Shown here: piece by piece, positions 3,717 to 22,081 of the stretch
Layout: each line of letters starts with the position of its first letter
How positions within the stretch are numbered: position 1 is the stretch's first letter
DNA from: a virus
IMG/VR virus record: IMGVR_UViG_3300023239_000238
Coordinates: 1-44,606 of that record
Direction: 5' to 3' (one strand)
Length of the DNA stretch: 44,606 nt
Program-made: the position numbers and the translations under genes
The notes under the pieces: model-generated
What the model was told of the DNA's origin: nothing
Databases searched by the model: none
The model's input: only the letters and a program-made list of their open reading frames with translations

Positions 3717-4844
3717 TTAAAGAGTAAAGCCACTGAACGTGTTTGAGTCCACGTCTTGTTTGGTTCCACCAATTATATATGATGATATTTGAGTTTGCTG
3801 TGGTGCCACCTGCACTTCTGCCCCAGCAATCCACTTTTGTGTCCACGGCAACGGATTGCTACCTGTTTTAATACCACAACTAAGCCCAACTGCTGTCATA
3901 CGCTTGCAGGTCAACCAATCAATGTACTGACACAATAATACTGTGTTTAGTCCAATCATACTACCGTCTTTGAACAAGTATTGTGCCCAATCTCTTTCCT
4001 GCTTGGCGGCATTAAGGAACATTGTTTCACATTCCTCTTTAGTTTCTTCGCGGATCTTTGCAAAGTCCTTGTCGTCTGACGGTAATATTTTAAGTAGTGT
4101 TTGTGTACTGCCCAAGTGAACATTTTCATCACGTGCAATCAGTTTAATAATCTTAGCATTGCCTTCCATCTTTTTAAGTTCAGCAAATGCCCAACTGCAT
4201 GCAAACGAAACATAAAAACGTATACCTTCTAACGCATTAACATTGTTTAAGCATAACCATAGTTTACGTTTTAACTCGTAACGATCAACTATAACTTCCT
4301 TGCCGTTAACCTTGTGCTTGCCTACGCCAAGTAGATTATAATACTGCACAGCTTTAATCAAGTCATCATAGTAGTGACTAATGTCTTTGGCACAATCTGC
4401 AATCTCTTTGATATCGTGTAGTCCATCAAACACTGTACTCGGATCGCTGTACACATTACGAATAATATGTGTATAACTACGACTGTGTATTGTTTCATTA
4501 AATGCCCAAGTTTCTATCCAAGTTTCCAACTCTGGGATGGTAGCGATAGGCAAAAATGCTAGATTAGGTGAGCGTCCTTGTACACTGTCCAGTAGTATCT
4601 GTCTTTTAAGATTACTGGTGAAGATATGCTTTTCATACTCAGTAAGTTCCTTAAAGTCTTTTGCATCACGCAATACATCAACTTCTTCAGGTCTCCAAAA
4701 GAAACCTAACTGCTTGTCTGTCAACTTGTCAAATTGACGATACTTTAGTGTGTCGAATCTCTGTATTGCCGGAGTACCTGCTTCGTCTAGGAACGCAAGT
4801 GACTTGGTATGATCTTTATTATTTTTAATATTGAATACGCTCAT
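3717..4844 (-). CDS. nrdB: class Ia ribonucleotide reductase, beta subunit
   Basis: This 375-aa di-iron subunit houses the tyrosyl radical that starts ribonucleotide reduction in the alpha subunit. [12 protein letters not shown] carries an iron-ligand acid. [13 protein letters not shown] holds the Glu and His ligands and the radical Tyr, in the E. coli-like order. [13 protein letters not shown] and RDENVHL carry the remaining ligands. The C-terminal tail [10 protein letters not shown] is the peptide that docks on NrdA. Length is normal for the family. The ribosome site is AGAGAGA. It lies 10 nt after nrdA and runs straight into the homing-type endonuclease. Confidence 0.97.
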
Positions 4845-4854
4845 GTTTTCTCTC

Positions 4855-7158
4855 TTAAATTACACAACTTTCGCAATCATCTTGATCTTCGTAGTCTTCA
4901 AGCTCTTGCTGTTTTGCTTCACCTAGTGCTTCTACTATGTATTCACCTTGTCCATCATATGTATTAAAGTAGTACAACTGCTTTAATCCATACTTGTAAC
5001 ACATCAACAAGTGTTGTAACATTGATGACATTGGAATCTTTTCGTCCTCGTAGTGCTGAGGATTGTAAGATGTGTTTACACTAATACCTTGATCAATGTA
5101 CTTTTGAAGTACGCCACACAGTTTAATATATCCCTCCGGGGTAGTCTGATCCCACAGTAGTTCATAACGGTTCTTTAACCGCCTATATTCAGGCACAACC
5201 TGCTTTAATTGGCCGTGCTTTGACCCCTTAACGCTTACAAAACTTCGCGGTGGCTCTATACCATTAGTAGCATTACTGATCTGCGCACTTGTTTCTGCAG
5301 GCATCAATGCCATTAGTGTTGCATTACGCTGACCAGTCCGTTTTATTTGTTCTCGCAGATCATTCCATGGCATACGCTCTTGATGCTTGACCAACTCGTC
5401 AACATCCTGCTTATACGTATCAATGGGTAAACGACCTTGCGCAGATTTTAAATCGTTCCATCTGGTGCATGCACCTTGTTCTTCCGCTAAGTCTGCAGAA
5501 GCCTTGATCAAATAGTAAGACCAGGCTTCTGCGTACTCATCTACCAGTGGCAACGCCGCTGGGTCACTGTAACTTACATCATTCTTAGCCAAGAAATAAG
5601 CAAAGTTAATGATGCCTATACCTAACGGTCTAAACTCTTCTGTTGCTTTACGTGCGGCTTTAATTGGATAACCTTGGTAACTCAACAGTGCATCTAGGCC
5701 GCGTACTGCCAACTTGCACATTTTCTCAAAGTCATGTGGGCTTTTTACATTGCCCCAATTGATCGCTGATAAAGTACACAGGGCGATCCTACCATCCTCG
5801 TCATTGACATCTTTCAATGGTACAGTTGGTAAATCTATTTCTGCGCAAAGGTTACTCATCTTCACAGGCGCGATCTTTTCATCGAACGGTGAGTGCGTAT
5901 TAGCATGATCCACGTTCTGTAAATAAATTCTTCCAGTGTCTTTGCGTTCCTGCATAAACCTACTAAACAGATCTGCTGCCTTGTAGGTCTTCTTCCTCAG
6001 TTTAGTATTGCGTTCTGCTCTCTCGTATAGCTCTTTGAATTTGTCTTGATCATTGAAGAACGCTTCATACATCTCTGGTACATCATGCGGACTAAACACA
6101 GTGATGTCTCCATTTGTGATTAGTCTTTCATACATTAACTTATTAAATTGTACGCCATAGTCCATTTGACGCACACGATTATCCTCTGTGCCTTTGTTGT
6201 TTTTAAGGACCAAGAGGTCTTCGATTTCATAGTGCCATATTGGATAGTAAAGTGTTGCGGCACCATTTCTTACACCTCCCTGACTACAACTACGTGTAGC
6301 AGATTGGAATAACTTGTAAAAAGGAGTTACGCCTGTGTGAAAAGCATCTCCTTTGCGTATAGGTGCACCTAATGCACGTATACGTCCTGCACCAATGCCA
6401 ATGCCTGCTTTTTGTGACACGTACTTAACAATACTTGCGGCTGTTGCATTGATACTGTCTAAACTGTCGTCTGTTTCAATCAGCACACAACTGCTGAACT
6501 GTTTTTGTGGTGTGCGCACACCTGCCATAACCGGTGTAGGCAAACTTACATCAAAATTACTGATTGCGTCATAGTAATCACGTACCCATTTGAGTCTAAT
6601 ATCTTTAGGGTAGTCTTGGAATAGTGTCGCGGCTATTAACATGTAAGCCATTTGTGGAGTCTCAAACATCTCACCAGTAACACGATTTTGTACAAGATAC
6701 TTGCCACGCCATTGTTCCATAGCAACATAGGTGAATGTTTCATCACGATCATGTTTAATATAACTATCTAATTTCTCCCACTCATCTGTATCGTATGCTT
6801 CTAATAGGCCGCGATCGTAAAAACCACTTTCGACATTGTGTTCTACCAGTTTTAACAATGGCCAAGGTGCATAGTCCCCATATACTTGTTTACGTAGATG
6901 ATAGTTAATTAGTCTGCCAGCAACATACTGATAGTTTGGAGCTTCTTCTGAAATCAAATCAGCGGCACTTTTAATAAGTGTTTCTTGTATGTCTACTGTT
7001 TTGATCCCAGTATAAAATTGGATGTGGCTTTTTAGTTCTACTTCACTGGCACTTACACCTGTAATACCTTCAGTTGCCCACATAACAACCTTGTGCATTT
7101 TTTCTATGTCTAGTTCTTCTTTGATTCCATCTCTCTTGATTACTTGAATCTTTGTCAT
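4855..7158 (-). CDS. nrdA: class Ia ribonucleotide reductase, alpha subunit
   Basis: This 767-aa catalytic subunit reduces NDPs to dNDPs. The N-terminal ~95 residues are an ATP-cone ([10 protein letters not shown], then a helical bundle), so dATP control may be kept. The active-site set is present: [11 protein letters not shown] with the first redox Cys, NLCAEI with the thiyl-radical Cys and its Asn/Glu partners, and [13 protein letters not shown] with the second redox Cys. The radical-transfer tyrosines lie in [10 protein letters not shown]. The tail ends in CESCVI, the shuttle pair re-reduced by glutaredoxin. No intein or intron is visible. nrdB and glutaredoxin follow downstream. Confidence 0.98.
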
Positions 7159-9719: not shown

Positions 9720-10329
9720 GTGTTTCGATCCATGCAGATAGTTCATCTGCTATTCGTTGATGACCCTGGTGATCTGGATGATCTCCTTGAGGAATGTTTG
9801 CTCCACTTATTTCATGAAGTGACTTGTTATAAAATAGTTCAGTAGGTAGTAGTTTTATTCCTGTCATTGCAGGGATGCTTTGCAACGGTACGGTCCAATT
9901 GTAAACAAACAGACATGTTACGCCTAGAGTTTTACACAATCCATATACCATTAGTAGATCCTTAATGGCGTTAGCGTGAGCTAAATCTTGACTGTAAATA
10001 TATTTGTAGTATTTCGACCCAATCGCATGATTTGAGTTGGCCGGGTGTAGTTCCATTGGGTATCCGTTTTCCCAATACCAACTCCTGTCAGGATTAGTAA
10101 TACAAAATAGTACTATGTCTCCTTTTCTGATCGATTTACGCTCAACTGCTTTAACAAACTGCCAAGTTGCTTGTTCAAGAGATGTGGCTGCTTGACTTAG
10201 ATTGTCTAATAGATAATTATTTTCCTGTGCAACAAGATACGGAAATCCTTGTTTCACTACGTCATGTAGGTCCACACCTGCAGGCCAACTATCACCAAAT
10301 ACATAAAGGGTTTTGTCTTTAATGCTCAT
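9709..10329 (-). CDS. SGNH/GDSL-hydrolase-like protein
   Basis: From the ATG at 10329 (ribosome site AAGGA) the protein is 206 aa. The N-terminal strand TLYVFGDSWPAG matches block I of SGNH hydrolases with the nucleophile Ser. The C-terminal GDHPDHQGHQRIADEL matches block V with the Asp-x-x-His pair. It may remove acyl or acetyl groups from a glycan or lipid, but no substrate can be read. The start overlaps the radical SAM stop by 11 nt, so the two are translated together. A longer start at 10365 is possible but lacks support. Confidence 0.8.
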   Translation of the reverse strand: MSIKDKTLYVFGDSWPAGVDLHDVVKQGFPYLVAQENNYLLDNLSQAATSLEQATWQFVKAVERKSIRKGDIVLFCITNPDRSWYWENGYPMELHPANSNHAIGSKYYKYIYSQDLAHANAIKDLLMVYGLCKTLGVTCLFVYNWTVPLQSIPAMTGIKLLPTELFYNKSLHEISGANIPQGDHPDHQGHQRIADELSAWIETHDN

Positions 10330-12031
10330 GGTGCATCCTTCTATAGATTTGTTTTGCATAATCATTGCGCTTACTGCTGGACGATGCTGAAATATGTTGT
10401 AATGTCCATTTAAGAAACTGTCCGTTAGTGTTCAACTTCGAAGTCATGTCTGACACTGCCATAGAACATGCAGTGATCGGCTTCGCTGTGGGTGTACGAT
10501 CCAGTTCAGTTGTAAAATAGAACTTGTTGTGTATTAACCAGTTTTCAGCCAAATTGTCTCTTAGAATCTGATAAAGATCACTTACTAAGAATAAGTCTAC
10601 TATCTTATCTGCGTCAAAGCTAATATAGTCCATTAACTTTCCTACTTTGTACACTTTGTAAAAATTTATAGTTGCATGTATTAAACTTAGCATTGTCATC
10701 TCTATAAAGTCGTGTTGAGTGAATGACACACAACTTTGCGTAAAAGGACTACTGAATTCACTTTGTCCGTGGAAGTCCCATCTTAGGGAGTTACTGTACT
10801 CAAACTTCCATTTATTAATATACTCGTTACTTCTGGCTGCCGGACTTGCAGATAGCAGTTCGCTTACATATACAAATGGTATTACATGTTCGTTGGCCAT
10901 GTCAGACAAGGTTTGTCTCCAGGAATCAACTGTCTGTCCGGGTAGTCCTTGTATTAACTGTACTGCTGATGGTAGGTGCGGGTATAACTCTCTAAGTTCT
11001 CTTATATGACTAGTGTGTACATCCCACCCGACGTCGGGTCTATCTATGTTCTCAAGTATTGTTGGATTATTATCTTGTACACTTATTACGAAATGTCTAC
11101 ACAGATTTGCTTTTGCCATAGTATGGAATATTTTTATGTTGTTATCTTTTCGTAATTTGCTTACTGTGTAATCTAATCTAAAACTTGCATTTTCGTTTAG
11201 ATTCTTATCTGCCATATACTCTATTAGATCAACATCCTCTTGGTACTGACCCAGGTTTGCGTCTGCCATGAATAAACTTTTTACTCCAACTGCTTGGAAT
11301 AAATCAATTTCATCTTTGTAACTGTCTTTCCTGCGTGTTGTTTTGTTTCCGTAACCGCTATTCCAATCACAAAAAGTACATGCGTAAGGACATCCCCTAG
11401 TCAGTTCGTACGAAATAATTGGTTGCAGTTTTTTCTCGTACATGTCGTCAACCATGGCTTTGAACATTTCTGCATTATGTAAGTATGGACTTATTTTAGA
11501 TTGCGGAACATATTCGTATTCGGCTACAATTGCACCCCTATTAGAATCAGGCCACGCCATGTTTGTAAGTTCTTCTTTTACTAAAGGTTTGTTAAGCACC
11601 ATCCTCTCAATGAACTCAGCAAATGCTTTCTCGCCTGGCCCATAAAATGCATAATCAACAAATTTATGTTCTAAGAAGTAATTTGGATTTATATTAACGT
11701 CTACACTAGGGCCCCCTGTAACAAACAGTATGCTAGAATCTACTCGAGGTCGGATTCTGTCTAACTGTGCTAGTATTGCTATGTAGTTCCAGATATAATG
11801 AGTAGTGCAGAACATATCTGGTTTTTCTTGTTGGATCAGACTTACTAGCTCATCGTCAGATAACTTAACTTGTTGTGGGATCGCCCATTCCAACTTCTTG
11901 GCTATTTGTGGTTTTTTAATTTCTATATATGTCTTAAGGTAAAGACTAGTTGATTTCACAAAAACGCTGTCATTAGGATGTACAACGTCATGGAATAGTT
12001 TATCTTCAGAATGGTAGAATAATATTTTCAT
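10319..12031 (-). CDS. B12-binding-type radical SAM protein
   Basis: This 570-aa protein has an N-terminal Rossmann-like cobalamin-binding region (about residues 55-145, with FVTGGPSVD and YGPGEKAF), but the classical DxHxxG His is not seen. The radical SAM core from about residue 205 has the cluster motif RGCPYACTFC (Cys214, Cys218, Cys221). The C-terminal ~200 residues are helical and unassigned. Enzymes of this class do methylations or C-C chemistry on unactivated carbons. It is translationally coupled to the SGNH-like gene, which may act on the same molecule. I see no RiPP precursor beside it. Confidence 0.9.
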   Translation of the reverse strand: MKILFYHSEDKLFHDVVHPNDSVFVKSTSLYLKTYIEIKKPQIAKKLEWAIPQQVKLSDDELVSLIQQEKPDMFCTTHYIWNYIAILAQLDRIRPRVDSSILFVTGGPSVDVNINPNYFLEHKFVDYAFYGPGEKAFAEFIERMVLNKPLVKEELTNMAWPDSNRGAIVAEYEYVPQSKISPYLHNAEMFKAMVDDMYEKKLQPIISYELTRGCPYACTFCDWNSGYGNKTTRRKDSYKDEIDLFQAVGVKSLFMADANLGQYQEDVDLIEYMADKNLNENASFRLDYTVSKLRKDNNIKIFHTMAKANLCRHFVISVQDNNPTILENIDRPDVGWDVHTSHIRELRELYPHLPSAVQLIQGLPGQTVDSWRQTLSDMANEHVIPFVYVSELLSASPAARSNEYINKWKFEYSNSLRWDFHGQSEFSSPFTQSCVSFTQHDFIEMTMLSLIHATINFYKVYKVGKLMDYISFDADKIVDLFLVSDLYQILRDNLAENWLIHNKFYFTTELDRTPTAKPITACSMAVSDMTSKLNTNGQFLKWTLQHISASSSSKRNDYAKQIYRRMHHEH

Positions 12032-14312: not shown

Positions 14313-14320
14313 TATTTATA
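14313..14320 (-). promoter_or_regulatory. late promoter TATAAATA
   Basis: This perfect late box overlaps the end of the 14316-14741 gene. It probably drives the genes from 14236 down to 12100. Confidence 0.75.
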
Positions 14321-14741
14321 GTGTTATACGTTGATCAATAAAGTGTATGTTTTTAATAGCACCATGTGGGTAAAATATAGGCAACATAAACCTTGCTGTT
14401 TCATCTAGTCCTTGTATGATTGGTACTTCTGCAAAGTCATCGTACAACCGCCCAACAGTGTCTTTTCCTTTAGTAAAAACGCTGTGTGCTTCCACGCCAA
14501 AACTAAAATACCAAACAGTGTGCAATCCCCTATACATTTCTCCAAAGATACTATCGCCTGACAGTTCATAACTACTGTCAATCGGACCGTTGATCTCAAG
14601 TGGTTGGGTTCTCAGACTGAGAACTTGGATCAGTGTTTCCCAGTTACGCTGTTGGTTACGCACGTGATCGTTGCCGGTACGACTACGTGTTACTCCGGTA
14701 TTAGTTATGTCGACTAGTGTAAATCCCGTATAGTACTGCAT
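14316..14741 (-). CDS. conserved-looking late virion-type protein
   Basis: This 141-aa protein begins YYTGFTLVDITNTGVTR and has no catalytic motif. The composition (Gly, Thr, aromatic, beta-rich) and the late promoter 5 nt before the ATG suggest a structural or assembly protein. It ends PHGAIKNIHFIDQ with a C-terminal strand. There is no ribosome site; the late box at 14747-14754 would start transcription on the ATG. It lies downstream of three tandem paralogous late genes. Confidence 0.75.
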   Translation of the reverse strand: MQYYTGFTLVDITNTGVTRSRTGNDHVRNQQRNWETLIQVLSLRTQPLEINGPIDSSYELSGDSIFGEMYRGLHTVWYFSFGVEAHSVFTKGKDTVGRLYDDFAEVPIIQGLDETARFMLPIFYPHGAIKNIHFIDQRITL

Positions 14742-14746
14742 ACAGA

Positions 14747-14754
14747 TATTTATA
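14747..14754 (-). promoter_or_regulatory. late promoter TATAAATA, leaderless type
   Basis: The box is followed by exactly 5 nt (TCTGT) and then the ATG at 14741. With T4 late spacing, +1 is the A of the ATG. Confidence 0.8.
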
Positions 14755-14759
14755 ACAGT

Positions 14760-15107
14760 CTAGGATACAGTAAAACTTGTTCCTTCAGTTACTGTAGTTG
14801 TTCCAAGGTTTACCGCACCTTTCGATGTTCCGATGGCCTGTATTTGTTGTTGCAAAGGCACAGCATCCAAGCAACTGTGTGCTTCAACACATACATGCAC
14901 GGTTCCGGTTGCACCAACTGAACTAACTGCTAGTAAACCCGGAATGGCTTGCAGTATTGCTTCATACGCTTCATCAGACCCATCGTCTTCGAACCGTAGA
15001 TCAACGCCCGTGTCAATCTTAAAGAAACGTACACTTCCGCCAAAACGGTATAGTGTGTCTGTTGATCCTGCAAATTCGTAGCCCGAACTTCTTGATATTC
15101 CTGCCAT
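14760..15107 (-). CDS. small late structural-type protein, paralogue 1 (MAGISR family)
   Basis: From the ATG at 15107 (ribosome site GGAGAT) the protein is 115 aa. It starts MAGISRSSGYEF and shares its plan with the two upstream genes: an MAG(I/L) start, a FFKID/FFTID-type strand, a helix with EAILQAI, a β-rich middle and a helix (QQQIQAIG) before a final TVT strand. These are probably copies of a small virion surface or decoration protein. It has its own degenerate late box GCTAAATA (15126-15133) just downstream of the terminator at 15137-15160. The longer frame to 15125 has no ribosome site of its own. Confidence 0.75.
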   Translation of the reverse strand: MAGISRSSGYEFAGSTDTLYRFGGSVRFFKIDTGVDLRFEDDGSDEAYEAILQAIPGLLAVSSVGATGTVHVCVEAHSCLDAVPLQQQIQAIGTSKGAVNLGTTTVTEGTSFTVS

Positions 15108-15125
15108 AGTGTATATCTCCACCAA

Positions 15126-15133
15126 TATTTAGC
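15126..15133 (-). promoter_or_regulatory. degenerate late box GCTAAATA
   Basis: This minus-orientation box lies 18 nt before the ATG at 15107, immediately after the terminator of the previous gene. Confidence 0.5.
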
Positions 15134-15136
15134 CAC

Positions 15137-15160
15137 AAAAAAAGGTGCCGGAGCACCTTT
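15137..15160 (-). terminator. intrinsic terminator after the 15184 gene
   Basis: The stem AAAGGTGC/GCACCTTT with a tetraloop is followed on the minus strand by seven T. It closes the transcript of paralogue 2. Confidence 0.9.
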
Positions 15161-15183
15161 CTTGTTACTCTTAATTACTATTA

Positions 15184-15528
15184 TTACAAAGCGATGTAAA
15201 AGTCTTTTGCTGTTACAGTTGCTGAAGCTAAGTTAACACTGTCAACAGTACCTAATGCTCTGATTGCCGCTTGTAATGTACCAACTACAACTGCGGCACC
15301 ACCTTCGGTCATGAAAGTCTGTTCTGTGTTTGAGTTACCCAATGTACCAGCGGCAAGAATTGTAGCTGTACCCATGATTGTTTCTAAAACTGCTTGTTGT
15401 GCGCCTTCTGGTCCAGCTGAACCATTAATTGCGTTAATATAGTCAATTGTAAAAAACTGTGCTTCTTTACCGATTACTTCATATCCTAGCGTAGTTGCTG
15501 TAGGATTTGCTCTTGTTAAACCTGCCAC
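15184..15528 (-). CDS. small late structural-type protein, paralogue 2 (VAGLTR family)
   Basis: The best start is the GTG at 15528, with an AGGAGAT ribosome site, giving 114 aa beginning MAGLTRANP. A longer frame to 15555 begins at TTG and overlaps the promoter, so it is rejected. It shares with its neighbours FFTIDYINAI, the helix QQAVLETIM and a final VTAKDFYIAL strand. The composition is Ala/Gly/Thr-rich with no Cys, as in decoration proteins. It is an isolated unit: late box AATAAATA (15557-15564) upstream, terminator downstream. Confidence 0.8.
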   Translation of the reverse strand: MAGLTRANPTATTLGYEVIGKEAQFFTIDYINAINGSAGPEGAQQAVLETIMGTATILAAGTLGNSNTEQTFMTEGGAAVVVGTLQAAIRALGTVDSVNLASATVTAKDFYIAL

Positions 15529-15556
15529 TTTAAATCTCCTAAATAGTATATGCAAG

Positions 15557-15564
15557 TATTTATT
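15557..15564 (-). promoter_or_regulatory. late promoter box AATAAATA
   Basis: This minus-orientation box lies 28 nt before the GTG at 15528. It sits directly after the terminator of the 15626 gene. Confidence 0.7.
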
Positions 15565-15572
15565 AATAAGCC

Positions 15573-15600
15573 AAAAAAAAGCAGACCGAAGTCTGCTTTT
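15573..15600 (-). terminator. intrinsic terminator with a UUCG loop
   Basis: The stem GCAGAC/GTCTGC closed by the C(TTCG)G tetraloop is followed on the minus strand by eight T. It ends the transcript of the 15626-16057 gene. It is symmetric enough to act in both directions. Confidence 0.93.
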
Positions 15601-15625
15601 TGTTTACTGCTGTTAGTTAAGTTAA

Positions 15626-16057
15626 TTAACTAGCTAGTCTAATACCAACTTTACGAACATCCATTGTGGTTGTGGTCATAGGACCGTTAGCACCAATGTT
15701 TGCTGCCAAGTCCGCACGTAATGCAGTCTGCATTGCGAGTGCGCTTTCCCATGAACTACGCTCTAGAACAACACTAACTTGTGAGTTAGCGACTGTAGCG
15801 CCAAGGTCAACCTGATATGCTACCACGGTTGCGTTGTTACTAATTGCGTTCAATACTGTTTCAACAGCACCTGCTGTTCCGTTTGTACCGCGACGTAATT
15901 CGCCTGCGATGTTACCAGCCACAAACTGAATGTTGTATGCGTCAATTGGTGATGCAATACCAGTGTTGATGATTACTGAGTTTGCGTTTTGAACTAGCGA
16001 ATCGCCAACGTTAACTACAACTTGACTATCACCGTGTACTTTTGTTAATCCTGCCAT
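15626..16057 (-). CDS. late structural-type protein, paralogue 3 (MAGLTK family)
   Basis: This 143-aa protein starts MAGLTKVHGDSQVV and shares the paralogue plan (a helix with VETVLNAI, a strand near VVAYQVD and a helix ALAMQTALRADLAA). It has an inserted strand region (SVIINTGIASP) absent from the other two. It is Ala/Asn/Val-rich, lacks Cys and is probably a virion decoration or minor structural protein. It has a full AGGAG ribosome site, its own perfect late promoter (16098-16105) and a terminator, which suggests high expression. The mRNA 5' end would start with the hairpin at 16078-16091. Confidence 0.8.
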   Translation of the reverse strand: MAGLTKVHGDSQVVVNVGDSLVQNANSVIINTGIASPIDAYNIQFVAGNIAGELRRGTNGTAGAVETVLNAISNNATVVAYQVDLGATVANSQVSVVLERSSWESALAMQTALRADLAANIGANGPMTTTTMDVRKVGIRLAS

Positions 16058-16077
16058 TTTAATTCTCCTAATATTAG

Positions 16078-16091
16078 TGCGAAATATCGCA
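16078..16091 (-). promoter_or_regulatory. 5' leader hairpin of the 15626-16057 mRNA
   Basis: TGCGA/TCGCA with a 4-nt loop begins at the predicted late start (about 16092). Such 5'-end hairpins protect abundant mRNAs. Confidence 0.55.
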
Positions 16092-16097
16092 TGCTAA

Positions 16098-16105
16098 TAT
16101 TTATA
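16098..16105 (-). promoter_or_regulatory. late promoter TATAAATA
   Basis: This perfect late box in minus orientation lies 40 nt before the ATG at 16057. Confidence 0.85.
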
Positions 16106-16127: not shown

Positions 16128-17975
16128 TTACTTGGCAAAATTTGCGGCGCTGAAGCCGGCGCGATCGACTACTTTAACTAGTCCTTGTGGGGTGGGGAAA
16201 ACAAAACCTTCGCCTGCAGGTTTATTGTTTACAAATTGTCCAAATCCTTGGATTTGTGAATCTAACTGATCATGTAGATTTTGTTTGTACTGCAATATAG
16301 CACTGAATATGGTATTAATTCCGTTGTATCCTGGACTAGCAACGGTCTTACCTTGTGCATCTTTAGCAAATAATAACCCACTATAATCATCACCTACTAA
16401 ATTTTGATATTGTTTGGCACTGGTGTTACTTTCCAACCATGTGTAAAGTGGTTGTTTTGTTTGCCCTGTTACAAATTGATTAAAGTAACGTTGTATCTGC
16501 TGTATTGTACTTGCAGGTATTTGTGCCAACAATGCATCTACTGCTGTACCATGCTGTTGTATTGTGGCAGTGGCACGTTTAGCTAACTGTACAGGCTGTT
16601 TTAACTCGAAGCGTAGTCCTGCACTTGGTGTTAACACTGCTACACCACCTGGAACATTTTCAAGGCCTTTACCGTCCCATTGAGTACTGGCACCACCTAG
16701 CTCTGAGAACTTTTGATGTACTACTATACCACCTATACTATTACCTACTATTTTTCCTAGATTACTGTTAACCGGTATACGATACTCAACGGTATTTGGT
16801 TTAAAATTGTATGATCCACCCTGCGGGTCTAACTTACCAGAATATAGCAAGTCTCCCCAATAAAACCCAGGACTCTTCGTAGCCGCATCCAACCCTGGCC
16901 AAATCTGTGCTAGTTTGTCGTATAAGTCACCACGCAACCCGCCCGATGCTTTGGTGCTGTCGTACTGCTTCCACTCATCTACATTCTTGGCTAGTACGCC
17001 TTTGTTCCACATATACTTGTCCATTACTGCAAGTTTACCGTCTGCAGGATCTCTACCAAATATAAGTGCAGGGAACCCGTCCCACTTGATAGTTAAATTG
17101 TTAGGATTTGCTACTAGTGCATTAAGTCCTGCTAACTGTTGTTTTGCCGCGGCACTGCCTGAGAATATAGCATCCTCTGGATGCGGAGTACGACCTTTTG
17201 TGTTTTCTGTTAGGCTTTTTACAAAACCAAACTTGCTACTTTCTGCCATGCTGTTGAACCAAGCACCTGTGCCCGGCAGTGGTGCAGACTCTGGTAACTG
17301 TATATCTGACTTTTCTAATGTTTCTCTTGCTCTGCCAATCAGTTGTTCGTAATTGCTTGACCCTTTAATAGCGGCAACTATATCATCTGCTGAGCTGAGT
17401 TTTGCTACAGGAATGCCAGTTACCTTGCTTAGTGTAGCCGGACTCTTGCCGTTCTCATAAGGTTGGTTGGTATCTCTAAAAACCAATCCGTTTTTATAAC
17501 TCCACTTTAGATTAGGCTGTAGTTCAGCAACAATACTGCTTAGTATAATGTGTCTTGCCATACCTGGTAGTACACTGCCTTCACCACTGCCTGCCATAGC
17601 AAAGGATTGCCAGGCTGGGTCATCTGTAAACATCAAATCTGCTTGTGCAAATCCGTTAGCAGAGTTGCCTGCTATAGGTGCTTTAACGTGTACACTATCA
17701 CCGGACTTTTTGATGTCTGTTTTAGCAACACCTGCGGCTAATAGTATTTGTACCAGTGTGTCTTTGTCTGTGGTGTTGGCATCTACCTGTAAGTCAAGGT
17801 CACCTGATGTGTCTTTTTTGCCTGTACTTCCCAACCAAGTGTTTGTGGGGAATGGTAGTCCGGAAACTTTTTCAAGCCAGGCTACAGTGGCAGGAATATC
17901 CTCACGTTTGATACGTTGTGTTAAAGGTTGCTTGTCTGCACCTTTAAATATATTTCCGCCTTCGAGTATTATCAT
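16128..17975 (-). CDS. Pol-beta-type nucleotidyltransferase fused to a KWDG ligase-like domain
   Basis: This 615-aa protein appears to carry two nucleotidyl-transfer folds. Residues 35-165 match the Pol-beta superfamily: GS at 49-50, then SGDLDL with Asp59 and Asp61, and a third acid Asp113 in QADLMF. Residues 290-470 resemble ATP-dependent ligases and capping enzymes: motif I KWDG (Lys297), a motif III-like FYWGDLLY (371-378), a motif IV-like GGIVVH (415-420) and a motif V-like FELK (456-459). The C-terminal ~140 residues are helical. A Lys-AMP or Lys-GMP intermediate plus nucleotide addition would suit RNA or DNA end repair, but it could equally be a structural relic. The start overlaps the 17972-18607 stop by 4 nt (ATGA); no ribosome site is needed. 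Confidence 0.75.
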   Translation of the reverse strand: MIILEGGNIFKGADKQPLTQRIKREDIPATVAWLEKVSGLPFPTNTWLGSTGKKDTSGDLDLQVDANTTDKDTLVQILLAAGVAKTDIKKSGDSVHVKAPIAGNSANGFAQADLMFTDDPAWQSFAMAGSGEGSVLPGMARHIILSSIVAELQPNLKWSYKNGLVFRDTNQPYENGKSPATLSKVTGIPVAKLSSADDIVAAIKGSSNYEQLIGRARETLEKSDIQLPESAPLPGTGAWFNSMAESSKFGFVKSLTENTKGRTPHPEDAIFSGSAAAKQQLAGLNALVANPNNLTIKWDGFPALIFGRDPADGKLAVMDKYMWNKGVLAKNVDEWKQYDSTKASGGLRGDLYDKLAQIWPGLDAATKSPGFYWGDLLYSGKLDPQGGSYNFKPNTVEYRIPVNSNLGKIVGNSIGGIVVHQKFSELGGASTQWDGKGLENVPGGVAVLTPSAGLRFELKQPVQLAKRATATIQQHGTAVDALLAQIPASTIQQIQRYFNQFVTGQTKQPLYTWLESNTSAKQYQNLVGDDYSGLLFAKDAQGKTVASPGYNGINTIFSAILQYKQNLHDQLDSQIQGFGQFVNNKPAGEGFVFPTPQGLVKVVDRAGFSAANFAK

Positions 17976-18607
17976 TTTTGGTAACTGGTAATTAACTCGT
18001 CTAAGCTGCCATTAGGATTGACGTATGCTTTGTAATCGTCACTCCACCATCCTGCAGGTGTAAGGTTAAATCCTACATTCCCTCTGAGTCCTGTTCCGTC
18101 TCGCCCTAGTGCTTCCATCCACTTGGATAACGGCATTGTCACACTGGCACTGTAGTTGCTTACATGTGGCGGAGTTGCTTTGATATAAACTTCACTAGGG
18201 TCTGTATTAGCAAACTTGTTAGGATCAACATAAACGTCTACGCTATCAATATACTGCCGTTCTGCGTCAGTAATTCTGCCACTTTGTAGTACACCTTGCT
18301 TGACCAAGTAATCAACTTTGCGTTTGATGTTAGCATTAACCTTTTCCATTTCTGTATCAATTGGATCGGATGTTGGGCCAGGTTGCTGTGTGTCTTGTGG
18401 TTGGTCAGGTTGCGGTGTATCTGTGGTTGTATCTGTGGTTGTATCTGTGGTTGTATCTGTGGCTGTATCAGTATCGTCTGCCTCGGGATCTGCCGGGGGT
18501 GCGATCCCTCTGTAATTGGACCACTTGGTAAAATCCGATCCCGAACCAGCGGCAACTCTATTGCGAATTACGTCCATTATTCCTTCAGTTATTTCTTTAA
18601 TCTTCAT
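17972..18607 (-). CDS. hypothetical protein with a TDTT low-complexity linker
   Basis: From the ATG at 18607 (MKIKEITEG start) the protein is 211 aa. Residues 40-85 are a disordered Asp/Thr/Pro/Gln linker encoded by a 12-bp tandem repeat (18417-18476). The helical stretch EKVNANIKRKVDYLVKQGVL precedes a β-rich C-terminal domain with many aromatic residues (LTPAGWWSDDYKAYVNPNG). No known domain is recognised. It overlaps the upstream gene by 11 nt and the NTase gene by 4 nt, so all three are co-translated. A longer start at 18646 is possible. Confidence 0.7.
   Translation of the reverse strand: MKIKEITEGIMDVIRNRVAAGSGSDFTKWSNYRGIAPPADPEADDTDTATDTTTDTTTDTTTDTPQPDQPQDTQQPGPTSDPIDTEMEKVNANIKRKVDYLVKQGVLQSGRITDAERQYIDSVDVYVDPNKFANTDPSEVYIKATPPHVSNYSASVTMPLSKWMEALGRDGTGLRGNVGFNLTPAGWWSDDYKAYVNPNGSLDELITSYQK
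18417..18476 (-). repeat. 12-bp tandem repeat coding for Thr-Asp-Thr-Thr units
   Basis: The unit GTATCTGTGGTT (plus strand) occurs three times exactly, once with one change and once degenerate. It lies inside the 17972-18607 gene and keeps the frame, so unit number can change without breaking the protein. Confidence 0.95.
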
Positions 18608-18848
18608 TCTTAAGTCTCCGTATTCCGCGAGTAAACTTACTAGCATCCTGTCCCCGAATACTATTCAATAGTCGGCGTTCTAGTTCCAATGCTTTCTCAG
18701 GCTCGTAGTTTTCTTTTATATAATTAATTAAATTTATAGCACCTTGTATCACGTGGCCTGCACGACTTTCTATCAAGTTAGCACGATCACGTGTAACAGG
18801 CATTTCTGCAAGCTCTGACAAGATGCTACGAGTTTTCTTTTGCAACAT
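18597..18848 (-). CDS. small helical hypothetical protein
   Basis: This 83-aa basic protein is all-helical in appearance (LSELAEMPVTRDRANLIESR, then ALELERRLLNSIRG). No Cys, membrane segment or catalytic motif is seen. The start has a TTGGAG ribosome site and a CATAAATA late box at 18866-18873. It is the first gene of a late transcript that continues into the 17972 gene and the NTase gene. It may be an RNA-binding or assembly factor for the downstream protein, but this is only a guess from position. Confidence 0.7.
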   Translation of the reverse strand: MLQKKTRSILSELAEMPVTRDRANLIESRAGHVIQGAINLINYIKENYEPEKALELERRLLNSIRGQDASKFTRGIRRLKNED

Positions 18849-18865: not shown

Positions 18866-18873
18866 TATTTATG
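18866..18873 (-). promoter_or_regulatory. late-type promoter box CATAAATA
   Basis: This minus-orientation box lies in the gap before gp41's stop. It probably starts the 18848-16128 transcript. Confidence 0.65.
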
Positions 18874-18888
18874 TGGGCTACAGTTTAA

Positions 18889-20295
18889 TTAGCCTGCCTT
18901 ACTTTTAAGTCCAGCTAACATTTGTTTTAGTTTTGTGCTGTCTACACCAGCATTTATCTTGGCAGATTCTTGTGGCTGACTAATTGTTGTAACACTGCTG
19001 GTGCTTTTTATTTGATCCATGATAGCTGATGGCTTTTGTCCACCAAATCCACCACTTTCACTTTGTCCTTCTTCACCTGGGTCTGTAATACGCAAGCTCT
19101 CTAAGTTAAACTCTAGGTCAACTTTTTGTCCTACACCACTACTGCTTCTAGTTTTCATCAACTGTATCTGATACCTACCACGTTCACGCATTGCACGACT
19201 TGTAAAAATACCAAACACATTATCTGCTGTGTTGATCTTACTGATACCACCCGATATGTGGCTGTGGTCAAATTCAATTTCTTCAACAGCACTACGATTC
19301 AACTGCGATGCTGTAATCATTAATATTTCAAACTCTTTTGCTAGGTTACGCAACTCTTCACTTACATACTTGTCTTTAACAAACAAATCACTTGGTGATA
19401 CTTTAGCACTAACTGGCATAACCAAGTCTAAGTAATCCACCATAATAAAGTCTGCTTTTTTTCCTGTCTGTACTTCTAGTTCTTTTAAGTATGCTCTAAT
19501 CTGATTAACATTGCTCTGTGCTGGCATGTACTTGATACGCAAGTTACCTGATTTCTTGCCTACCATACGTATCTTCATTTCGAGTGTGTCAAGGTCCTTG
19601 AATATTTCTTTGGTTGCAACATTAGCAACCATTGCATCCATACGCATAGCACACAGTTCTTCACTAAGTTCCAGTGTTAAAAACACACCGTTAAGTCCTT
19701 GACTTATCCAGTTGATAGCAATGTTCTGCATGAACAAACTTTTACCACTACCACTGCCACCTGCAAAAATGTTTAGCTCGCCTCTGTTCATACCACCAAA
19801 CAAGCGTCTATCCATAGTAGGCCAGCCTGTGCTGACTTGTCCGTTGTTATCCTTGATCTTCATAAGCCTTGCTCTAGGATCTTCGAAGTAGTCTGTACCC
19901 ATGTCCTTGGTAAGACTGATCTGCACTGCGTCTTTGATCAGTTTTTCAACTGGATCATACTCGCCATTCTCAATCATGTCCGCGGCTTTGAGGATAGCAC
20001 GTTCGAGTTCGTGCCTGCGACTAAAGCCTTCAAACTCTACCATGAACCAATCATAGTGTCCTTCACCAACGTCGGGCACTTCTTTAAGATCAACTCCTGT
20101 TTGGGCCAGTATCTGTTCCTTTGTGGGCATAGTTTTATATTCACTACTATGCTCCCTTATAAACTTAGCCGCTTCACGCAGACTTCGATCAAAGTTCTCT
20201 TCATTGAAAATGTTCTGCACACGCACAAATGTTTCTGCGTCCTGCATCATCATTTCTAAAAACAATTTTTGTATTTCTGCTGAATATTCTTTCAT
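18889..20295 (-). CDS. 41: replicative DNA helicase, T4 gp41/DnaB family
   Basis: This 468-aa RecA-fold hexameric helicase unwinds DNA 5'-3' at the fork with the primase. The N-terminal helical domain covers about residues 1-140. Walker A is GGSGSGKS (179-186), Walker B is DFIMVDYLDLV, and the sensor ITASQLNRSA follows. The C-terminal ~60 residues are Gly/Ser/Gln-rich, probably the primase or gp59 contact. A TATAAT box lies 7 nt before the ATG and no ribosome site is present, suggesting a leaderless start. The SDR and radical SAM genes separate it from primase gp61. Confidence 0.95.
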   Translation of the reverse strand: MKEYSAEIQKLFLEMMMQDAETFVRVQNIFNEENFDRSLREAAKFIREHSSEYKTMPTKEQILAQTGVDLKEVPDVGEGHYDWFMVEFEGFSRRHELERAILKAADMIENGEYDPVEKLIKDAVQISLTKDMGTDYFEDPRARLMKIKDNNGQVSTGWPTMDRRLFGGMNRGELNIFAGGSGSGKSLFMQNIAINWISQGLNGVFLTLELSEELCAMRMDAMVANVATKEIFKDLDTLEMKIRMVGKKSGNLRIKYMPAQSNVNQIRAYLKELEVQTGKKADFIMVDYLDLVMPVSAKVSPSDLFVKDKYVSEELRNLAKEFEILMITASQLNRSAVEEIEFDHSHISGGISKINTADNVFGIFTSRAMRERGRYQIQLMKTRSSSGVGQKVDLEFNLESLRITDPGEEGQSESGGFGGQKPSAIMDQIKSTSSVTTISQPQESAKINAGVDSTKLKQMLAGLKSKAG

Positions 20296-20308: not shown

Positions 20309-20954
20309 CACTAAAATTTTGAAAATTAATATCTTTATTTCCGTCAAGATAGATTACATTGCTGTTAAGTTCGTTTGTGTCCATACCTAATATTGTATCA
20401 ACGAACACGCCTGTGCTGGTTTGATTTTGGTCAAGTTCCATTGGATTTATTCCGCAAAAACAAGCATCGCCTGTTCTACTAAAGTTCTTCATTATCAAAT
20501 AGTTCTGATACTTATTACCAATATAGTCTGCATGGTTAATGTTTGTGTGCTGGTACACAAATGCAGACAACATCCAAGCCACTCTGGAGTTTTTATTCAA
20601 TGATACAGTTTTAATTATGTGATATGGTAGTATTACGCTAACAAAATACTGTTGTGTCCAATTCTTTTCTAGTCTCCATGTATCAATTACAGGAACTTCT
20701 TGATTAAAGTTGTCATAGCTTAATGCTGACCCGTTTTGGTTAAACAGTATAAAGTCGATAGTTGGTAACAATCTCAAGAACTTCTCTATAGTGCCTTGAT
20801 TAACTGTGTTCCAATCGATAATATGTTGATATAGATTATCTTGTTCTGCTAGTTTTGTACTTGATAAACTACACACTGTCCAGCCTTTGGCTAGTAGTTG
20901 CTGTTGTACAGTTAGTCCCCACTTGGACCCACATCCTAATAGTAATGCATTCAT
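20304..20954 (-). CDS. short-chain dehydrogenase/reductase-like protein
   Basis: This 216-aa protein has a Rossmann start (NALLLGCGSKWGLTVQQQL; the Gly pattern is altered from TGxxxGxG). A strand FILFNQNGS replaces the usual NNAG, followed by VAWMLSAF with a candidate Ser and YLIMK as the YxxxK catalytic pair. It is shorter than the usual ~250 aa, with a shortened C-terminus. It may oxidise or reduce a sugar or small molecule with NAD(P). It overlaps the upstream radical SAM gene by 4 nt, so the two probably share a substrate pathway. The two sit between the helicase and primase genes. Confidence 0.75.
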   Translation of the reverse strand: MNALLLGCGSKWGLTVQQQLLAKGWTVCSLSSTKLAEQDNLYQHIIDWNTVNQGTIEKFLRLLPTIDFILFNQNGSALSYDNFNQEVPVIDTWRLEKNWTQQYFVSVILPYHIIKTVSLNKNSRVAWMLSAFVYQHTNINHADYIGNKYQNYLIMKNFSRTGDACFCGINPMELDQNQTSTGVFVDTILGMDTNELNSNVIYLDGNKDINFQNFSV

Positions 20955-22081
20955 AGTTCTGTAAAAATATCTCGCCAGTTCGCACTTATTTTATCTGCGA
21001 ACGATTCAAAGAATGGTTCGTAATCTTCTTCTTTTGAATTTTGTAATTCTCCTAAGCAATTATCCAACTGTCCAATTAAGTTTTGATTGCAAGGAAAATT
21101 ATTTTTGTGGTTAATTATTTTTTCTGCACACTTGTCTTTAAGATCCTGCGACAAATTACGGCATTGTATGTTTGTGTGTCCCATAGTAACCTGATTGATC
21201 GTGAAATCAGTTATACCGTATCCGTTATTAAAGAACTGTTGTGTGTCTGTTAAGTAAAGTGCGCTGGCTACAAAAAATACAGAATTGACCCTAATGTCGA
21301 AATGTGTGCTCTTAAGGAATTGTAGATTGTTTAGGAACTTGTGCCAATTTGCGTCACGCCTGATATATTCAAATCTACTACCTGTTGTGTCAGCACTTAT
21401 GGTTATTAACACATTTTTAAACTTTAACAGTTCTGTGATCACAGGATTGTTCTGTTCAAACATCATGTTTGTGTTTACTCTAAAAGTGCAGTCAATTGAC
21501 TTGTCCAGTTGTTTCAGCAATCGTACGTTGTGTTTAATAAGTGTAGGCTCGCCACCACTGAGATATATTTCTTTCATGTGATGTTGTCTACTTACTATTA
21601 AATCAATGATTGTATCAGCCTGTTCATCTGGCGTATGCTGAATTGGTTTACCTTGTTCTTGTGCAATTGCGCTACTTTGTTTAGCCCAACATGTAACACA
21701 CTTCAAGTTGCAAGTACTACTCCAATGCAAATCAATAGCATTCAATTGAAATGCTGTATTGTCAGAATAATCTACATCTACATCTTTAAACATAGGATTA
21801 TATAAGTCACGTAAGAACTTATATCCTGTATCGCTTTCCTGTAGACTACATGTTCTACAGTTATAATTAGGCAATTCTTTATAAGTATTATTTCGCACAT
21901 GCTGTGCAGGCCAATCGTTAACAATGTCTTGGATAGAGTTATTACCTAGACGTCCCAGTTCGTGCTGTCCATTCACACATGTAACAATTCTGCCATCTAC
22001 CTCTACCTTAACATGATTCCACGGTACAGCGCAGAAAGTTTTAGATTGCTTAAACAAATAAAATTTCTTTTTGGGATCCAT
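20951..22081 (-). CDS. radical SAM protein with an N-terminal SPASM/twitch-like cluster domain
   Basis: This 376-aa protein has the core cluster motif CNLKCVTC (Cys124, Cys128, Cys131) and the SGGEPTL motif near residue 175, both firm radical SAM marks. The auxiliary-cluster cysteines normally found after the core lie here before it: Cys17 in FCAVPW, Cys35, Cys75 and Cys78 with a LGRLGNNSIQDIV stretch. This looks like a permuted SPASM/twitch arrangement. Such enzymes modify peptides or small molecules; the target is unknown. Its ATG overlaps the primase stop (TAATG) and its end overlaps the SDR start (4 nt). Confidence 0.92.
   Translation of the reverse strand: MDPKKKFYLFKQSKTFCAVPWNHVKVEVDGRIVTCVNGQHELGRLGNNSIQDIVNDWPAQHVRNNTYKELPNYNCRTCSLQESDTGYKFLRDLYNPMFKDVDVDYSDNTAFQLNAIDLHWSSTCNLKCVTCWAKQSSAIAQEQGKPIQHTPDEQADTIIDLIVSRQHHMKEIYLSGGEPTLIKHNVRLLKQLDKSIDCTFRVNTNMMFEQNNPVITELLKFKNVLITISADTTGSRFEYIRRDANWHKFLNNLQFLKSTHFDIRVNSVFFVASALYLTDTQQFFNNGYGITDFTINQVTMGHTNIQCRNLSQDLKDKCAEKIINHKNNFPCNQNLIGQLDNCLGELQNSKEEDYEPFFESFADKISANWRDIFTEL

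Follow-up and report, generated by a model that had tools for sequence, protein, structure and literature searches.

A PolX-like polymerase fused to a DUF6267 ligase-like domain in a phage: a candidate two-enzyme strand-break repair protein

The window analyzed here, the whole 44,606-nucleotide stretch of IMG/VR virus record IMGVR_UViG_3300023239_000238, an environmental virus fragment, carries on its minus strand a gene in which a half resembling family X DNA polymerases (PolX-like) is fused to a DUF6267 half that is predicted to be ligase-like (Table 1). We propose, with a probability of about 0.5, that the product is a two-enzyme protein for the repair of strand breaks, filling gaps and sealing nicks, that would be packaged, cut, and ejected. 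The predicted folds, the catalytic residues, the conserved pairing of the two enzymes, and recurrent tags resembling protease cut sites give this proposal computational support. The open reading frame is real and its residue pattern lies far beyond chance. Among close relatives (83% to 94% identity), dN/dS is 0.05 to 0.10 for the gene and 0.04 to 0.10 for each half, and both halves are therefore under strong purifying selection. A preliminary description of this DNA had placed a Pol-beta-type and a KxDG-ligase-type centre in one protein, which the predicted folds, conservation, and synteny now back. It recognized the fusion of two enzymes and missed that the C-terminal half is DUF6267, that the polymerase has a PolX-like thumb, and that the protein bears cut-site-like tags.

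Table 1. Positions of the fusion gene, its domains and motifs, and its upstream neighbours in the window.
Feature	Position	Strand	Remarks
PolX-like polymerase/DUF6267 ligase-like fusion gene	16128..17975	minus	615 aa, ATG start at 17975
N-terminal tag M-I-I-L-E before G6-G7	17961..17975	minus	matches T4 gp21-type [LI]xE followed by G
PolX-like palm and thumb domain, residues 6-203	17367..17960	minus	catalytic D59, D61, D113; AF2, Foldseek, VIA
Linker, residues 204-262	17190..17366	minus	[LI]xE at LPE227-229 and LTE255-257
LTE255-257, predicted prohead-protease site between polymerase and ligase	17205..17213	minus	
DUF6267 domain, residues 263-615	16131..17189	minus	predicted covalent nucleotidyltransferase (ligase) fold, helical insert before motif IV
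Motif I KWDG, nucleophile K297	17076..17087	minus	conservation in 60 DUF6267 domains
Motif III-like GDLL, G374 D375	16845..16856	minus	conservation
Motif IV EGFV (589-592), E589	16200..16211	minus	conservation, Rnl1 alignment
Motif V KVVDR (601-605), K601 and R605	16161..16175	minus	conservation, Rnl1 alignment
224-aa ORF	17972..18646	minus	alternative start 18607 (MKIKEITE followed by G)
83-aa companion gene, phrog_11854 'virion structural protein'	18597..18848	minus	
CATAAATA, one mismatch to T4 late promoter, weak	18866..18873	minus	ahead of the 83-aa gene
DnaB-like replicative helicase	18889..20295	minus	conserved upstream neighbour

As had been suggested in that description, the structures of both halves were predicted and their residues aligned. 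AlphaFold2, run with 36 relatives, modelled residues 1 to 203 as a minimal family X polymerase composed of palm and thumb (pLDDT 91). When this half was compared with the PDB by Foldseek, pol beta was the best match (E 9e-4) and family X enzymes filled the top ranks (pol mu, TdT). VIA-align superposed 178 residues of the same segment on pol lambda/mu (Z 10.1) and gave a Z of 9.6 with a minimal viral PolX, which consists of palm and thumb, so that palm and thumb both match. The GS/GT, the DxD, and the third Asp occur in the pattern expected of the palm: all 36 diverse relatives have G49, G58, D59, D61, Q111, D113, and R141, with either S or T at residue 50. No match to Pfam DNA_pol_B_palm (PF14792) was found in the window, and the Pfam PolX thumb model is touched by only 2 of the 36 members, at E 0.1; hence our term PolX-like, which refers to fold and active site and implies no membership in a described PolX family. 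A sequence search of solved structures returned nothing useful for either half, and a scan of bacterial and archaeal genome contigs with two peptide patterns confirmed no cellular relative. Judging from the model and the conserved residues, a PolX-like fold and active site in the N-terminal half is very likely.

Residues 265 to 614 match Pfam DUF6267 (PF19782) with an E of 3e-33 and 116 bits against a cut-off of 27, and the profile is matched by 60 of 60 relatives. The family, which corresponds to phrog_455, occurs in at least 410 phage records; both entries are labelled as of unknown function, and no paper naming DUF6267 was found in the literature collection searched. Modelled by AlphaFold2 with 60 relatives (pLDDT 95), this half adopts the nucleotidyltransferase fold of the RNA/DNA-ligase superfamily. 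The best 50 rows listed by VIA are all covalent-nucleotidyltransferase ligases with RNA ligases first, at Z scores of 7.6 for NgrRnl of Naegleria, 7.2 for REL1, 7.0 for T4 Rnl1, and 6.3 for Pyrococcus DNA ligase, a Z of about 7 being intermediate according to the tool itself. With Foldseek alone, this half had no significant match in the PDB (best E 0.59). In the viral-model library, the best named matches outside the DUF6267 family are annotated as RNA ligases. Relatives in the jumbo phages Atu_ph07 and Phosso have a separate ligase-like gene that overlaps the polymerase gene and carries EKLDGS...EGVV. The Atu_ph07 protein matches nearly the whole Pfam RNA_ligase model (PF09414) at E 0.002, below its cut-off, and when DUF6267 was aligned by hhalign with three KLDG ligases from jumbo phages (Atu_ph07, Phosso, and L268), the result was an E of 3.4e-7 in local and 1e-10 in global alignment, with an E of 0.74 for the reversed control. 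Direct hhalign comparisons with T4 Rnl1, Rnl2, and gp30 were not significant, the best local match to Rnl1 falling on motifs IV and V. The domain stops a few residues past motif V and no separate OB domain is seen in its predicted secondary structure; this and the rank of RNA ligases as its nearest solved folds, ahead of DNA ligases, make a standard DNA ligase less likely. No capping enzyme is among the structure matches listed, which lend no support to the earlier view of the domain as capping-like. A covalent nucleotidyltransferase/ligase fold and active site in the C-terminal half is almost as likely as the PolX-like assignment of the other half.

The active site of this predicted ligase was located by conservation among 60 DUF6267 domains. 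The motif I nucleophile K297 is present in 59 of them, D299, G300, G374, H420, and G590 in all 60, and E589 and K601 in 58 each. The patterns E589-G590-x-V592 and K601-x-V603-x-R605 are conserved, and this stretch aligns with motifs IV and V of T4 Rnl1 (EGxV...K with EGYVAV...FKI). DUF6267 thus resembles T4 Rnl1/Naegleria-type RNA ligases in the fold seen by VIA, whereas a significant direct sequence match is absent and a helical insert separates its motifs III and IV. The residue numbers of the preliminary description are correct throughout (G49 S50, D59, D61, D113, KWDG at 297, FYWGDLLY at 371, GGIVVH at 415, and FELK at 456), and its order of ligase motifs holds for motif I (K297) and motif III (GD at 374 to 375). 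Motifs IV and V had been misassigned and lie at 589 to 592 and 601 to 605, respectively. GGIVVH, the candidate for motif IV, is conserved merely as G-I-x-x-H and was replaced by EGFV, and FELK (456 to 459) is variable, with F in 10 and K in 10 of the 60 domains, so motif V cannot be placed there.

Loci L080 to L085 have the order ligase-polymerase-ligase (e.g., L083:3838-4989 and 5823-6881). In the first DUF6267 copies of L081 and L083, D375 (N or K), E589 (G or D), and K601 (R) are all lost, and the first copy of L081 is also without K297 (R). Both retain G374, F391, P393, H420, and G590, and they adjoin an intact polymerase and a second ligase copy. Because D375, E589, and K601 were lost together in paralogues that keep the fold residues, the assignment of motifs III, IV, and V is supported. 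These degenerate family members are also what would favour the view that the window protein is structural or degenerate and has no catalytic function. We consider this scarcely credible, since the window protein and nearly all of its relatives retain the full set of catalytic residues under strong purifying selection.

The RNA-ligase flavour of the C-terminal half makes RNA repair an alternative function. The Pol-beta-fold half could restore nucleotides lost from an RNA, for example a tRNA cut by a host anticodon nuclease, and the Rnl-like half could then seal it. Such a role has been proposed for the RlaP and Rnl pairs of jumbo phages, in which a Pol-beta-fold enzyme is likewise paired with a ligase (PMC7824862). 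In structure, RNA ligases come closest to the ligase half, which is also related to the RNA_ligase-type proteins of jumbo phages, and the neighbours in HTVC008M include a zeta-toxin/AAA_33 P-loop kinase and a CTP_transf_like protein. However, the polymerase half has its nearest fold in DNA polymerase X with a thumb, and the RlaP profile (PF10127), which a diverged member might escape, found no match at E<=1 in the 36 members and none in the window. Moreover, DnaB is the neighbour, no tRNA genes were found in the window, and delivery with the genome would favour a target that needs immediate repair. RNA repair is rather unlikely. Gap-fill-and-seal repair of a nucleic acid of any kind is probable, and the chances that DNA is the main substrate are about even. 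Bacterial LigD carries a gap-filling polymerase and an ATP-type ligase in one chain, and it inserts a ribonucleotide and then seals at the 3' ribose. A mixed route of this kind, in which a ribonucleotide is inserted and sealing takes place at the 3' ribose, would reconcile the DNA and the RNA readings. LigD differs in that its polymerase domain is primase-type, not PolX, and the window protein has no Ku or phosphoesterase domain.

The closest precedent is PgVPolX of Phaeocystis globosa virus, for which gap filling and nick sealing in base excision repair have been shown (PMC5537341). As in the window protein, a family X polymerase forms the N-terminal and a KxDG ligase the C-terminal part of a viral protein (PMC5537341); the ligase type, the host, and the proposed delivery differ here. 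PgVPolX, from an algal giant virus, is 1093 aa long; its ligase is of the bacterial NAD+-dependent kind, and it includes a lyase-type domain of 8 kDa (PMC5537341). The window protein comes from a phage and joins, in 615 aa, a minimal palm-thumb PolX to an Rnl-like ligase with a helical insert, in which no OB domain is seen. Its family is, in addition, frequently split into two genes and bears protease-like tags.

The fusion gene lies two genes downstream of the DnaB helicase gene, with replication genes on one side and a run of small genes on the other. DnaB is found upstream in 50 of the 63 polymerase-bearing loci that have at least 3.5 kb of upstream sequence. A homologue of the phrog_11854 companion stands upstream of the polymerase gene in nearly all relatives, jumbo phages Atu_ph07 and Phosso included, and the 224-aa ORF, which shares 4 bases with the start of the fusion gene, is found in close relatives only. 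The earlier placement of the product among late virion-region proteins is half right, the gene belonging to a cassette that adjoins DnaB. The late promoter reported upstream comes down to CATAAATA, which has one mismatch and is two genes away. Perfect T4-late-like TATAAATA motifs are all downstream of the fusion gene, among the small genes, and across the window the number of T4-late-like motifs is at chance level (82 versus 88). The small genes at 14313-16105 are adjacent, two of them are alike, and perfect TATAAATA motifs precede the ORF starts at 14313, 14747, and 16098; they are probably late virion genes.

Across loci, polymerase and ligase are fused, encoded by adjacent overlapping genes, or arranged as ligase-polymerase-ligase, and in many marine phages DUF6267 occurs alone, without the polymerase. 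On the DUF6267 tree the fused state changed at least 4 times, and the nearest relative of the window protein is a split version (L059). DUF6267/phrog_455 proteins of T4-like marine phages share with the window protein the Pfam membership and the place after the DnaB/gp41 helicase; most of them differ in being without the polymerase, and some are fused to a cytidyltransferase-like domain. In L020/L050 (~4662-4747, 5662-5747), one contig encodes the two halves of a close relative, polymerase and ligase, in separate reading frames that overlap, which is either a natural split or a sequencing frameshift.

In the window protein, [LI]xE occurs only at residues 3-5, 227-229, and 255-257, that is, in the N-terminal tag and the linker. 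E5-G6-G7 is kept in 34 of 36 relatives and jumbo relatives begin at MGG; nearly all polymerase proteins open with M-x(0-4)-[LIVF]-x-E-G-G, and the first five residues have low confidence in the AlphaFold2 model. Just before DUF6267, the linker contains [LIVM]xE in 26 of 26 distinct fused proteins against 15.7% of control windows, and the strict [LI]xE[AG] in 18 of 26 against 0.7%; these counts and those of the tag ignore relatedness, and the tag regexes were partly chosen after viewing the data. Inside the folded domains, selection against [LI]xE was considered and rejected for lack of specificity, [LI]xD being depleted to the same degree in the polymerase. Separate DUF6267 genes often start like MRAFEFLTE or MKSFKKYIAE, each followed by A, and T4 ipII/ipIII start with MKTYQEFIAE followed by A; cyanophage DUF6267 proteins are mostly without a tag. 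In T4 Alt, the gp21 cuts lie at ITE-6 and LTE-619 (PMC5694885). The window protein thus shares with Alt and the T4 internal proteins the short N-terminal [LI]xE sites, Alt being cut near both ends (PMC5694885, PMC3012670); none of these is a polymerase-ligase, and cleavage between two enzymes is a prediction made for the window protein.

These short cut-site-like tags suggest loading into the virus particle, cleavage there, and delivery with the genome. The tag was calibrated on cyanophage S-CREM2, which has a published virion proteome (PMC10665884). N-terminal [FYL]xx[FYH][LIMVF]xE was present in 6 of 16 detected non-structural/hypothetical proteins and in 3 of 146 undetected proteins (p 2.5e-5), this FxxF form having been chosen after looking and an earlier looser regex having given p 0.056. 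The DUF6267 protein of S-CREM2 (gp87) has no tag and is absent from its virion protein list. In Atu_ph07, the homologues of the polymerase (gp65), the ligase-like protein (gp66), and the companion (gp68), with numbering checked against gp123 and gp125, are located within the CDS 31-76 virion cluster, for which 29 virion proteins were detected, a count for the whole cluster (PMC6102473). A gp21-type protease is encoded by HTVC008M, Melnitz, Atu_ph07, S-PM2, and G002; Peptidase_S77 was not found in the partial record of the window nor in the 261-kb contig G003, which holds a fused protein. The packaging raised as a possibility in the preliminary description thereby gains independent support from the tags, the companion, and the cluster location in Atu_ph07. 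Judged from sequence patterns, location, and analogy, packaging of the fusion protein in this phage is slightly favoured, and the chances of cleavage in the linker are slightly less than even.

Among the virion-detected enzymes of S-CREM2 (L263 ORFs 6, 12, 13, and 14; L264 ORFs 136 and 154), a SAM hydrolase, a Cas9-annotated nuclease, a kinase, and a cytidylyltransferase have a common T4-like capsid-targeting N-terminus. Other cyanophages have a cytidylyltransferase after DUF6267; it was detected in S-SM1 virions (PMC3037559) and has a tagged homologue that was detected in those of S-CREM2.

The DnaB neighbourhood would also suit an ordinary accessory of replication or recombination that is never packaged, an extra ligase and gap filler by the DnaB fork in which [LI]xE is a chance occurrence or a remnant. 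The mostly untagged cyanophage versions and the undetected DUF6267 protein of S-CREM2 agree with this view. Against it, the tags recur on both separate proteins and in every fused linker, the companion is annotated as a virion protein, and the Atu_ph07 genes lie in the virion cluster. We regard an unpackaged accessory as doubtful. Ligase-fold enzymes are able to pass NMP to other acceptors, and the two centres might instead act, once ejected, as effectors in the manner of T4 Alt, modifying a host or phage molecule by AMPylation, nucleotidylation, or capping. The N-terminal tags do resemble those of Alt and the T4 internal proteins, and an ejected cytidylyltransferase belongs to the same cassette (PMC3037559, PMC10665884). 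However, palm and thumb of the polymerase half are those of a gap-filling PolX, the ligase half retains motifs I to V and comes closest to true ligases, and the two are constantly paired as polymerase and ligase, which makes a tagging or modifying role decidedly improbable.

For the gap-filling and sealing protein that we propose, we infer the reactions, the choice of DNA over RNA, the cleavage, the packaging, and the timing as follows. The fusion protein would enter the prohead together with the phrog_11854 companion, and the prohead protease would cut after E5 and after E257, yielding two free enzymes that would both be ejected with the genome. The PolX-type half would then add one or more nucleotides at a gap or a damaged 3' end by two-metal catalysis on D59/D61/D113, and the Rnl-type ligase half, charged with AMP on K297, would seal the resulting nick. 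The likeliest target would be nicked or gapped phage DNA as infection starts, the pair acting like LigD or PgVPolX. The full proposal, a capsid-borne repair polyprotein that is cut by a protease and injected with the genome, with DUF6267 as a new branch of nucleic acid ligases, is put forward tentatively and is less likely than not. If right, it would give an active site and a testable function to DUF6267/phrog_455, so far of unknown function. The family occurs in hundreds of marine T4-like phages, a large share of it in the neighbourhood conserved around DnaB, and would become connected with a PolX-like clade that we encountered in phages only. The proposal would also suggest that repair enzymes, besides inhibitors and ADP-ribosyltransferases, are delivered inside T4-type capsids, and would have implications for how, during the first minutes inside the cell, phage genomes cope with sunlight damage or host nucleases.

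Several other features were observed around DUF6267 and elsewhere. DUF6267 is fused to a cytidyltransferase-like domain in several phages (BFVD A0A6J5L7B8, A0A0M6VVW4), and in S-PM2 (L042, 3974-5753) this combination is split into two ORFs, T4-GC71 and T4-GC190. Beside the polymerase of Atu_ph07 (L037:5579-8195) there are tandem paralogues with MK/RWHQL-type N-termini and an LYRG motif, which look ADP-ribosyltransferase-like by eye and have no Pfam match. The ORFs preceding DUF6267 in pelagi-, methylophilales-, and cyanophages (L035:1935-2993, L036:1914-2999, and L040:2178-2957) are PD-(D/E)XK nuclease-like by eye, again with no Pfam match. The zeta-toxin/AAA_33-type P-loop kinase of the HTVC008M cassette (L035:4730-5392) is possibly an end-healing partner. 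Finally, the window encodes two radical SAM proteins (10319-12031 and 20951-22081), one with a weak B12-binding domain and the other with a QueE-like phrog match.
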